Source of the DNA: Halococcus hamelinensis 100A6
GTDB lineage: Archaea; Halobacteriota; Halobacteria; Halobacteriales; Halococcaceae
Assembly (NCBI RefSeq): GCF_000336675.1
Contig: NZ_AOMB01000020.1
Span: 15,223-79,222, forward strand
DNA: 64,000 bases
Reading direction: 5' to 3'
The position numbers and the translations under genes are program-made. The notes under the pieces were generated by a model. That model saw nothing but the letters and a program-made list of their open reading frames with translations, was not told the origin of the DNA and made no database searches. The stretch's first letter is position 1; every line of letters begins with the position of its first letter. Positions 22,880-54,010 of this stretch are shown piece after piece.

Positions 22880-23059
22880 GTGAACGCGTCGTCGGAGTCC
22901 CCGAGGTCAGCCGCTCGGGAACGAGACGCGCACGAGGCGGTCTACCGATCGGCGTGTGTGGATCCGATTACCGTGACCGATTGTTACGACCTCGTGTGCT
23001 ACCCGCGCGAGGACCACGATCCCTCGCGCTCGCTCTCGGCGAAACCGACGACAGCCTGA
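22880..23059 (+). CDS. Candidate 59-residue Cys-containing small protein
   Basis: GTG-start frame between cysK (divergent) and the DUF998 gene. The protein reads from an Arg/Ser-rich N-terminus into VYRSACVDPITVTDCYDLVC and YPREDHDPSRSL. Three cysteines spaced C-x8-C-x4-C, good third-position GC and native-looking aromatic/acidic composition favour a real gene. I recognise no family. It ends 26 nt before the next ATG, so the two could be co-transcribed. Confidence 0.4.
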   Translation: MNASSESPRSAARERDAHEAVYRSACVDPITVTDCYDLVCYPREDHDPSRSLSAKPTTA

Positions 23060-23085
23060 AGCCGCCGCCGACCCGCGGTCGAACG

Positions 23086-23685
23086 ATGGCGACCACCGAA
23101 CCGGACCCGCTCGCGAACCCAGGCACCGCCGACCGGGTCGCGGCGGCGTTCGGGGTCTTCACCGTGGTCGTTTCGCTCGGCGGGATCGCGTCCGCGATCG
23201 CCCTCTCGACGCGCTTTTCGTTCGCCACGGACGCGCTCTCGGACCTCGGGCGGGCGACCTGGCGCTCCTCGACGGCCTTCAACACCGGGCTCCTCGTGTC
23301 CGGCCTGTGTGCGCTGGTTCCGGGGGTCGTACTCGTGAGGAACTCGCGGACCCTGCTCCACGTCGCCGGAAGCCTCGCGTTCTCGCTCTCGGCGGTCTGC
23401 CTCGCGCTGATCGGCGTCTTCGCGCTGCCCGCCCCCCAGCACGGCACCGTCGCGGTCGGCTTCTTCCTCGGGTTCACCGTCGCGTTCGTCTGCTACGGCG
23501 CGGGCGACGTGCGCTCGGGCGCGCGGCGCTGGGGACTCTTCGCCATCGGGCTCGCGGCGGTCCACGTCGGCGGCTGGGCGGTCTGGATCGCCGCGGGCAC
23601 GCCCGGCGGCCTCGCGCTCCCCGAAATCGTCGGGTCCGGCTGTGTCTCGGCGTGGATCCTCGGGACCGCCGTCAGACTGTGGTGA
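23086..23685 (+). CDS. DUF998-type membrane protein
   Basis: 199 residues with six predicted membrane helices (for example VAAAFGVFTVVVSLGGIASA, GLLVSGLCALVPGVVLV, VAVGFFLGFTVAFVCYGAGD). The DALSDLGRATWRSSTAFNTGL segment after helix 1 is characteristic of DUF998 (SDLG motif). Cytoplasmic membrane; function unknown. Confidence 0.8.
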   Translation: MATTEPDPLANPGTADRVAAAFGVFTVVVSLGGIASAIALSTRFSFATDALSDLGRATWRSSTAFNTGLLVSGLCALVPGVVLVRNSRTLLHVAGSLAFSLSAVCLALIGVFALPAPQHGTVAVGFFLGFTVAFVCYGAGDVRSGARRWGLFAIGLAAVHVGGWAVWIAAGTPGGLALPEIVGSGCVSAWILGTAVRLW

Positions 23686-48930: not shown

Positions 48931-49109
48931 GGGGTCGTGGCCAAGCCAGGCATGGCGACTGACTCCAGAGGCAACGCGCTCGGTGACGAAACTCCAGACT
49001 GATATACAGAGCGGGCGGCTGATCACCACCCGCCGTGACGACCCTCTGGAGGACCGAGGCGCACACCGGAGATATCAGTCGATCGGGGGTTCAAATCCCT
49101 CCGACCCCA
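48931..49109 (+). tRNA. tRNA-Trp (anticodon CCA) with 105-nt intron
   Basis: Acceptor stem ggggtcg (48931-48937) pairs with cgacccc (49102-49108), followed by discriminator A at 49109; no CCA is encoded. The anticodon stem is actga (48958-48962) with tcagt (49075-49079), loop C-U-CCA-G plus A38, anticodon at 48965-48967. T arm ggggg-ttcaaat-ccctc. The intron lies after position 37 (48969-49073), the canonical archaeal site. Spliced length is 74 nt before CCA addition. Confidence 0.95.
48969..49073 (+). ncRNA. Box C/D guide RNA within the tRNA-Trp intron
   Basis: Box C gtgacga (48983-48989), guide gactgatat (48997-49005) and a D'-like caga (49007-49010). Box C' gtgacga (49035-49041), guide cctctggag (49043-49051) and a D-like ccga (49054-49057). 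By the N+5 rule the first guide targets U39 (49075) and the second C34 (48965) of the same tRNA. These are the two sites known to be methylated this way in haloarchaeal tRNA-Trp. The D and D' boxes are non-canonical. Confidence 0.88.
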
Positions 49110-51948: not shown

Positions 51949-52118
51949 CGCGCGAGGACGGTTCCACCCCGTCTAAAGCGGTAGCATGAACGACTTCTAA
52001 TGGCCGACAACGCTTATCACTCCGACGAGGTCCGCAAGGTATTGCCTGCTTATCCAAACTATGTGAGATAGTGAACGCTGATAATCCAGGGTATCGCGGG
52101 TATCACCCGGCCCCTTCA

Positions 52119-52128
52119 ACTTAATATG
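52119..52128 (+). promoter_or_regulatory. TATA-like box of the HEPN-like gene
   Basis: acttaatatg is centred about 28 nt before the ATG at 52153, consistent with a leaderless mRNA. The Met at 52153 is therefore favoured as the start. Confidence 0.5.
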
Positions 52129-52152
52129 CGTCTCTTTGTTAATCTTATGTGA

Positions 52153-53478
52153 ATGGAACTCTACGAGATGGTTCAACTCGCGGTTGAGCAAATTGACACT
52201 GCTGACCAGAATCGTTTTGTTGACGGTCCTGACGCAAATCTCAATATCATTATCGACGCTATCATAGAGGAAGTCACAGAAGACCATGATGACTTTAACA
52301 TATCGCATGAAGGATTGCGGTCTCGTGTTCGCGGTATTCTCTCAGAAATTGACGAATCGAACCAAAATCCAGTTTCATCGTTTCATGAGAACTTCGAAAC
52401 GATGCTGGGAAATATCGAATCCGATCAGTCCGACATCACAGTCTACTTCCCCGTGAATTTTATGTACCGTGAAGGGAGTGTTTTTTCACTTCCGACAACG
52501 ACATTCAATGTGACATTTGAGAAAGTATCAGACGAAGAATGGGATCAATACGTAGAATATACTGATGAAGACTCGTTTTATCAGAATTTTGTAGAGGATC
52601 TTCCTATCCGTCCACCTCATACAAGTCCTTTCAGCACACAGCAGTTCTGGAAATCGACGATTTCTGCCGTTGATGAGCAGTTTGCAGTCGATACTGTCAG
52701 TAGTGCTTTATCTATTCTGCTTGGGAAAATCACATTAGCTTCAAATCTTCAGCAGCTCACAGCGACGATCAATTCGTCCTCTTGGAATCAAGGTCAAGCT
52801 CTCTTGAGGGAGCCTCTTGGTTACTTCACAATGGTTGGCGGGGTTCCAAGTGGTGTGTTTTCTGACGGAGACTATGATCCTCGGGAAGCGTATCGGCTTG
52901 GTCCAGGGCGTCGTAGTCGATTCAACGATGTGTACCTTGACTTACCTGACTTCAATTCACCAAATAGCGAAATTGAGACACATTTGATGACAGGCTTCTC
53001 GGCTTTCTTTTCGGCTATGACCGAACCCAGCAATAATCAGGCACTGTTGAACTACTGGCGGTGCCTAGAGGCGATCACTTTCACTGCTGACCAGAATTAT
53101 GCCTCTGATGAGGCTCTCTGGCGCGCTCAATCCGTTGCTTGGTCAGAACCACACGAAATAGCAGATGTAACCATTGAAAGACTATCTAAAAAGAGAAATC
53201 GCTTAGTCCATCGTGGAGGACCAGTGAGTGTTGAGGAGAATGATCTGATTATTCTCAAGCGATTCGCGGAAGGCGCGCTCATATTTGTTGTTGAGCGAAA
53301 AGACGAACTTCCGCTCGAAGATTTGAACTTTATATTTGAGTACGCTAGTAAGACGGAGGATAGCCTCTCTCAAGCCAAGTCTTACCGCGAGGGAGAGATT
53401 CAGAATTCCGCCTCAAAGATCGAGAAATGGGAACACGAGATCACACTCATAAATAACATTATCAACCGAGATGTATAG
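52153..53478 (+). CDS. Apea-like HEPN domain protein (putative)
   Basis: 441 residues, soluble, no membrane segment. The C-terminal ~150 residues are helical: NNQALLNYWRCLEAITF, then TIERLSKKRNRLVHRGG, with the HEPN R-N-x3-H catalytic-type motif at about residues 348-353, and EENDLIILKRFAEGALIFVV. This matches the Apea/HEPN pattern of RNases in abortive-infection and toxin systems. The N-terminal ~200 residues are unrecognised. Codon use is AT-rich, unlike the flanking genome. A 7-T run follows the stop. Defence function is inference. Confidence 0.72.
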   Translation: MELYEMVQLAVEQIDTADQNRFVDGPDANLNIIIDAIIEEVTEDHDDFNISHEGLRSRVRGILSEIDESNQNPVSSFHENFETMLGNIESDQSDITVYFPVNFMYREGSVFSLPTTTFNVTFEKVSDEEWDQYVEYTDEDSFYQNFVEDLPIRPPHTSPFSTQQFWKSTISAVDEQFAVDTVSSALSILLGKITLASNLQQLTATINSSSWNQGQALLREPLGYFTMVGGVPSGVFSDGDYDPREAYRLGPGRRSRFNDVYLDLPDFNSPNSEIETHLMTGFSAFFSAMTEPSNNQALLNYWRCLEAITFTADQNYASDEALWRAQSVAWSEPHEIADVTIERLSKKRNRLVHRGGPVSVEENDLIILKRFAEGALIFVVERKDELPLEDLNFIFEYASKTEDSLSQAKSYREGEIQNSASKIEKWEHEITLINNIINRDV

Positions 53479-53487
53479 GGAAAAATG

Positions 53488-53494
53488 TTTTTTT
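53488..53494 (+). terminator. T-run terminator after the HEPN-like gene
   Basis: Seven consecutive T residues begin 10 nt after the stop codon, the usual signal for intrinsic archaeal termination. Confidence 0.55.
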
Positions 53495-53614
53495 ACCCTC
53501 TAAAGGAGGATATGTACCCCTACTTGCTCGCCCCATTATCCGGGCAATTACACTACATCTACGTAGTATTCGGCTATATAGAATAATAACATCCTCACAC
53601 CAAATGACTAGAAG

Positions 53615-53632
53615 AAACAATTACAATTGTTT
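53615..53632 (+). promoter_or_regulatory. Palindromic promoter/operator of the DUF3892-like gene
   Basis: aaacaat-taca-attgttt: perfect 7-bp arms. Its centre is ~29 nt upstream of the ATG at 53653, so the palindrome coincides with the TATA position. A protein bound here would block initiation. Confidence 0.5.
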
Positions 53633-53652
53633 GGCAAGTACTGTTTACTGCG

Positions 53653-53931
53653 ATGGCATATCAATTGAAATGCGTCAACACGGAAGGCAGCGATCCCGAT
53701 GACTGCACAGAGATCACGACGATAGGAATTCCAGCACAAGGGGGTGGGACTAACACCTATACGCCGGAACGGATTCACGACAGGATCAAAAACGGCGAGG
53801 TGTTCTATGTGAAACACAACGGCAGTAGGACTGATGTAGACGCTGTCACGGAATCAGATGGGACAAAATACGTCCGGACGGCAGCGAACGATACGAAGGA
53901 CGACAATCTTCTGAAGCAGGACAGTTGCTAA
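53653..53931 (+). CDS. DUF3892-like small protein
   Basis: 92 residues. QLKCVNTEGSDPDDCTEITT, then YTPERIHDRIKNGEVFYVKH and TKYVRTAANDTKDDNLLKQD resemble DUF3892 (basic/polar small domain ending in D(N)LL). Function unknown. It belongs to the AT-rich island and has a palindromic promoter. It is separated from the HEPN-like gene by 174 bp containing a T-run, so it is probably transcribed independently. Confidence 0.6.
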   Translation: MAYQLKCVNTEGSDPDDCTEITTIGIPAQGGGTNTYTPERIHDRIKNGEVFYVKHNGSRTDVDAVTESDGTKYVRTAANDTKDDNLLKQDSC

Positions 53932-54010
53932 CAGAGATGTCGTCCATTCAAACCATTCCCGGCTAATGCTGCCGAGAAGTACATAGGGGACGAGACGAAA
54001 GGCCCGCCAG

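Follow-up and report, generated by a model that had tools for sequence, protein, structure and literature searches.

The window analysed here, a 64,000-nucleotide stretch of the Halococcus hamelinensis 100A6 genome (3.42 Mb in 46 contigs), contains an AT-rich island of ~2 kb (51966..53951). Its GC content falls from ~0.69 to 0.41–0.49 between ~51950 and ~53950, and GC3 is 0.446 in the larger and 0.591 in the smaller of its two ORFs, against 0.855–0.930 in six flanking ORFs, bearing out the sharp ~2 kb change in base composition and codon use reported in a preliminary description of this DNA. Both ORFs lie on the plus strand where that description had placed them, at 52153–53478 (441 aa) and 53653–53931 (92 aa). 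The extent it gave for the island, 51985–53940, was right as to place but slightly too narrow, as the edges, read from the unoccupied site of the nearest relative, G250 (L034), fall at ~51966 and ~53951. On one side the island borders a nudix-like gene, and on the other a small gene that precedes a rhodanese-like one; these flank labels come from reading of the sequence, not from a family search. Elsewhere in the window, an Rfam tRNA match of 179 bases (48931–49109, plus strand, 45.6 bits) coincides with no ARAGORN call and is therefore probably an intron-containing tRNA, while a tRNA-SeC with anticodon tca reported by ARAGORN on the minus strand (23000–23090) is absent from Rfam at gathering score and is likely a false call.

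Comparison with other genomes of the genus indicates how the island came to lie here. The sequence of G250 matches the window at ~90–92 percent on both sides, stopping at 51965 and resuming at 53952; its flanks are joined, with 36 bp between the two matching blocks. At four further same-genus loci (L035–L038) the nudix-like match is followed within ~45 bp or less by the rhodanese-like match, and three others (L039–L041) have ~0.6 kb with a second nudix-like match between the flank genes. None of these eight loci (L034–L041, from all other genomes of the genus but the tenth, G391) contains a match to island sequence at E≤1e-3, and a whole-genome search found no match to the 441-aa protein in eight same-genus genomes. 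Rather than being present with native composition at the same place in relatives, the outcome that would have spoken against a foreign origin, the island is missing from all eight and, judged by these alignments, is an insertion acquired by horizontal transfer. Distant relatives do occur in the genus, since the family profile gives HEPN-only matches elsewhere in three of the nine other genomes, in open frames of 609–708 aa that are possible longer relatives (G250:C11:21920, G044:C29:85451 and G209:C6:57760). As for the island's edges, an exact-repeat search found neither a target-site duplication nor a terminal inverted repeat, with just four 8-base matches common to both edge regions, and the left non-coding edge and the right part of the island are single-copy in the genome. 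A mobile-element origin was considered and rejected on the lack of terminal repeats and the single-copy state of the island pieces tested.

The larger gene (52153..53478, plus strand) encodes an ApeA-like HEPN protein, as judged from the ORF, a family search, its motif, a structural model and a profile match. The motif, R-N-R-L-V-H (R348–H353; 53194..53211, plus strand), lies at the residue given in the preliminary description and supplies the hallmark of the HEPN superfamily, R-x4-6-H, as R348-x4-H353. It is well conserved: 29 of 30 family rows have R-[N/H]-x3-H, only a 116-aa truncated fragment lacking it, and so do all seven aligned members from outside the class, so that loss of the motif among homologues, which would have counted against the assignment, is not what we see. 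E306, R348 and H353 are invariant in alignment A12 (29 rows). The E-x3-[KR] motif, typical of HEPN domains but not universal (wording from PMC3710099), is absent, with F310 at position +4 of the invariant E306.

The family is sparse and divergent. Whole-genome searches place it in 30 of the 391 genomes of the class, including that of the window, and in 20 of 86 genera, and tblastn finds it on 8 of 72,556 plasmid records; the nearest relative of the 441-aa protein, L002, is just 31 percent identical. A profile search across the phylum matched 14 of 383 genomes, five in the window's order and nine outside the class; of the latter only G400 matched over the whole length, the others mainly over the C-terminal half. 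The outside-class alignment aligns with the haloarchaeal one over 391 columns (hhalign probability 100 percent, E 2e-38), a score due in part to the full-length G400 protein that heads it. By tblastn neither island protein matched phages, and contig scans found no relative of the family in viral contigs; genome-contig scans gave no loci with the single protein and three with profile A4. Six members (L014, L015, L017, L025, L027 and L028) are left out of alignment A1, and A12 leaves out L005 and L024 in addition; a second G079 match (contig C2) is not in the alignments.

Two observations on individual members may be recorded here. A 460-aa member is identical in G079, G233 and G302 (L013, L014 and L015), which belong to three genera, pointing to recent transfer. 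The truncated 116-aa fragment, a relative of L002, is found in G010 (L069:9508-9858); beside and into it L043 and L069 share ~2.3 kb at 81 percent, with 0.6 kb more at 78 percent, and these shared stretches suggest decay of the same region.

Standard libraries recognise little of this. The 441-aa protein has no match at E≤1 to any Pfam, PADLOC or NCBIfam model, and none of 29 family members matches NCBIfam at E≤0.01. Among 24 members, the Pfam HEPN model PF18735 gives weak matches to five (best 0.0016) and PADLOC likewise gives weak ones, the best being to a CARF-HEPN Csx20 model in a single member (0.0024); PHROGs gives one weak match (0.0066).

Structural modelling assigns the HEPN domain to residues 266–387 (52948..53313, plus strand). 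The AlphaFold2 model of the whole protein, built from a four-row alignment, has a modest pLDDT of 61 and no Foldseek match at E<0.001. When residues 266–387 were compared by VIA-align, the ten best rows were HEPN proteins throughout, including 4nqf (Z 10.4, rmsd 3.8, 117 aligned), Csm6 5fsh (Z 9.0, rmsd 3.7, 109 aligned), 2hsb (Z 8.2, rmsd 3.0, 99 aligned) and AbiV 9bj6 (Z 8.1, rmsd 3.9, 110 aligned), values to be read with the caution that Z below 8, or below ~13 for helical bundles, may reflect a common arrangement. The 441-aa protein is a HEPN protein with a predicted helical-bundle fold at residues 266–387, as had been proposed from the motif; by sequence profile, its closest kin of solved structure are ApeA proteins. 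The structure list used by VIA-align contains no ApeA structures, and an ApeA likeness is not excluded by the fold search. The AbiV, Csm6 and HepT proteins have a fold similar to that predicted for residues 266–387, but the profile did not match them at E≤1.

The N-terminal region (residues 1–265; 52153..52947, plus strand) is a candidate sensor. Modelled separately (pTM 0.68, pLDDT 67), it is predicted to begin with helices followed by an alpha/beta part at residues ~91–231. Searched alone, it stays as unrecognised as first described, with no Foldseek match at E<0.001 and a best VIA-align row (Z 4.7) that we do not trust.

The closest solved relatives of the family are two E. coli proteins, Ec3ApeA (PDB 9hxj) and Ec4ApeA (9hxm), whose entries are titled as bacterial antiviral defence proteins (putative for Ec4ApeA). 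Against the PDB, profile A12 finds them at whole-sequence E values of 9.5e-8 and 1.2e-7, respectively; the best single stretches score 5.5e-4 for Ec3ApeA (profile 153–332) and 5.9e-5 for Ec4ApeA (232–317), and in both matches the RN..VH part forms a separate stretch that is non-significant alone. The next chains are DltD 6o93 (0.0041), a designed protein (0.47) and syncytin (0.88), so that among the five chains at E≤1 only Ec3ApeA and Ec4ApeA carry HEPN or ApeA names. A 24-row profile retrieves a single chain at E≤1, Ec4ApeA (3.6e-5). Both proteins share with the family the WxxLExLT and RNxxVH elements in the same order, and Ec3ApeA also shares part of the region preceding WxxLExLT; they differ in having ~85–90 more residues between the two HEPN motif regions. 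As for a common N-terminus, the Ec3ApeA match starts only at profile position 153, and the N-terminal model yields nothing better than the low-scoring VIA-align row given above. A homologue of Ec4ApeA, encoded on an E. coli plasmid beside a gene annotated as anti-phage protein Ppl, resembles the window protein in lacking PF18739 and PF18862 at E≤1, but is bacterial, longer (609 aa versus 441) and different at its N-terminus. A four-row Ec4ApeA alignment matches the family with an hhalign probability of only 48 percent over 47 columns, and a plasmid search with an Ec3ApeA fragment found nothing.

The "Apea" label of the preliminary description thus holds for these solved proteins but not for the Pfam definition of ApeA. 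Neither PF18739 (HEPN_Apea) nor PF18862 (ApeA_NTD1) matches the window protein at E≤1, and PF18739 matches only one of 24 members, at 0.092. Canonical ApeA, which combines both domains, likewise has a C-terminal HEPN domain with R-x4-H in one large protein, but it has no convincing profile link to the window protein; hhalign probabilities of 4.5 and 8.2 percent leave the link to canonical PF18739 ApeA undetectable. On these profile comparisons, haloarchaeal ApeA of the Pfam type and the 441-aa family belong to different branches. The table of a review places ApeA under PF18735 HEPN (PMC10952713), the model that five of 24 members match weakly. A canonical ApeA is encoded elsewhere in the window's own genome (L094, G000:C5:58737-59150; PF18862 7.3e-45, PF18739 4.6e-30), which therefore has two ApeA-like proteins.

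Some relatives adjoin restriction genes. An Eco57I/type IIG (PF07669) restriction-methylase gene of 1043–1245 aa is the immediate neighbour of the HEPN gene in 8 of 28 homologue-bearing genomes and absent from that position in the other 20, whereas random placement of the 75 Eco57I genes of these genomes predicts 0.04, a null that is too generous because defence genes cluster. In this count the three genomes with the identical protein (G079, G233 and G302) are taken as three, and G010, with its truncated copy, and three PF07669 matches below the cut-off are left out. At five loci (L051, L053, L057, L061 and L064) the HEPN and Eco57I genes overlap by 1–53 bp on the same strand, lengths that depend on the starts picked by the ORF caller; at L050 and L058 they lie on one strand 106 and 67 bp apart, and at L071 they are divergent, 112 bp apart. 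In a midpoint-rooted tree, which has long branches for L030 and several non-haloarchaeal rows and leaves out L014 and L015 (identical to L013), L017 (294 aa as read) and L028 (a fragment), the window protein and L002 (100/98) adjoin (92/87) a clade of six (100/98), all of them R-M-adjacent. Since six cases share that one clade, L009 lies elsewhere on the tree and L017 is unplaced, at least two independent cases of adjacency are secure; under the random-placement null the chance of two or more is ~9e-4.

PADLOC scans of three loci matched the partners to type IIG restriction-methylase and DrmMI models and other genes there to HmaB, BrxH, DrmD, DrmA or HKD+Snf2 models. A wider scan of 20 loci (19 yielding proteins of ≥200 aa) compared 71 neighbour proteins with 72 from 20 control regions on the same contigs. 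DrmMI/type IIG families accounted for up to six neighbours and were not among the 25 commonest of 73 control families; PLD/SNF2-helicase families were found in three neighbours versus two controls. On the question of whether homologues sit in defence islands, general defence-gene enrichment is only modest relative to controls, and the Eco57I adjacency of some homologues is the stronger evidence. Anantharaman et al. (2013; PMC3710099) discuss the coupling of HEPN proteins to restriction and, for epsilonproteobacteria, list ApeA as lying within R-M operons, so the theme itself is already known.

Such adjacency and overlap in neighbouring lineages fit either a guard or a second-line role beside restriction, and one may ask whether the window protein, instead of acting alone, guards a restriction system encoded elsewhere in the genome. 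PrrC offers a precedent: like RloC it is an anticodon nuclease with a HEPN effector, it is encoded with a restriction system, much as some members of the present family adjoin restriction-type genes, and it is kept inactive by the PrrI R-M system (PMC3710099). The clade next to the window protein is R-M-adjacent, and two PF07669 matches occur on other contigs of the genome. The window copy itself, however, has no adjoining restriction gene, no PF07669 match occurs on the 10.9-kb contig of its closest relative, L002, and the N-terminal ABC-ATPase that PrrC and RloC carry (PMC3710099) was not found by Pfam at E≤1. We regard a guard of this kind as improbable.

Little credence can likewise be given to a HEPN protein engaged in RNA processing or regulation and carried as a neutral passenger, a reading consistent with the absence of a known partner and with the roles of other HEPN domains in RNA processing (PMC3710099). 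The retention of the motif residues across very divergent members argues against it, as do the patchy and partly plasmid-borne distribution of the family and the restriction-type genes that abut some relatives.

The smaller gene (53653..53931, plus strand) encodes a DUF3892 protein, as first described (PF13031, E=1.1e-10; 42.2 bits against a gathering cut-off of 22.3). Its relatives occur on five plasmid records, all haloarchaeal by name, at 39–67 percent, and four of these matches have no annotated gene beneath them. Of 31 genomes searched for PF13031 (that of the window, 29 more bearing a homologue, and G250), three contain it, and it adjoins the HEPN gene in the window alone: the copy in G171 is ~12 kb from the HEPN homologue on the same contig, and that in G296 is on another contig. 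With no adjoining homologue in the 29 other homologue-bearing genomes, the DUF3892 gene is probably a separate passenger. A nucleotidyltransferase or CRISPR-sensor Pfam domain is found in neither island protein at E≤1, and the MNT nucleotidyltransferase that adjoins HepT in MntA-HepT has no counterpart here, the adjoining ORF matching DUF3892 alone when the two island proteins were scanned. Upstream of the small gene lies a perfect palindrome, AAACAATT-AC-AATTGTTT (53615..53632; 8-bp arms, 2-bp spacer), a possible operator. The palindrome of the "palindromic promoter" described earlier is therefore real, but its role is suggestive only, because dinucleotide shuffling of the 174-bp gap gave an equal or better palindrome (spacer up to 6) in 60 of 3000 trials. 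A two-gene toxin-antitoxin or defence pair, with the HEPN protein as toxin and DUF3892 as antitoxin or sensor, would account for two genes on one strand of one acquired island, 174 bp apart with a palindrome ahead of the second, and for the same-contig copy in G171, but it is very improbable given how seldom the two co-occur or adjoin, their differing GC3 (0.45 versus 0.59), and the setting of the best DUF3892 plasmid relative (67 percent), which has an IS6 transposase and a protease but no annotated HEPN gene nearby.

Single-protein HEPN effectors are an established kind. We favour the view, with a probability of roughly 0.64, that horizontal transfer brought in an orphan HEPN ribonuclease of an ApeA-like archaeal family, a defence effector encoded by a single gene. 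In such an effector, the N-terminal region would keep the HEPN RNase at the C-terminus switched off until it detects some infection product, possibly one arising from DNA breakdown. Once triggered, a HEPN dimer would cut RNA through R348 and H353, a dimerization and RNase activity that we infer from the HEPN family, and the cutting would stop growth, giving a second-line (abortive) antiviral effect.

A further proposal, tentative and with the odds against it, is that in archaea the whole family works together with restriction as a second line of immunity, its N-terminus sensing small DNA breakdown products. Such products, released by a restriction enzyme or by a virus, would switch on the HEPN RNase, and the R-M-linked and solo members, the window's among them, would be two deployments of one sensor. 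Sensing of this kind would give a reason for the family's association with restriction enzymes.

In conclusion, the orphan effector proposed for this island belongs to a family undescribed by the Pfam, NCBIfam, PADLOC and PHROGs libraries searched. In the titles and abstract openings of the literature consulted, neither this archaeal family nor its kinship with Ec3ApeA and Ec4ApeA nor its Eco57I linkage was found described. The family is tied to ApeA proteins with solved structures, and part of it is linked to Eco57I-type genes. Its definition, together with that linkage, makes the coupling of restriction to HEPN RNases in archaea directly testable in laboratory haloarchaea.
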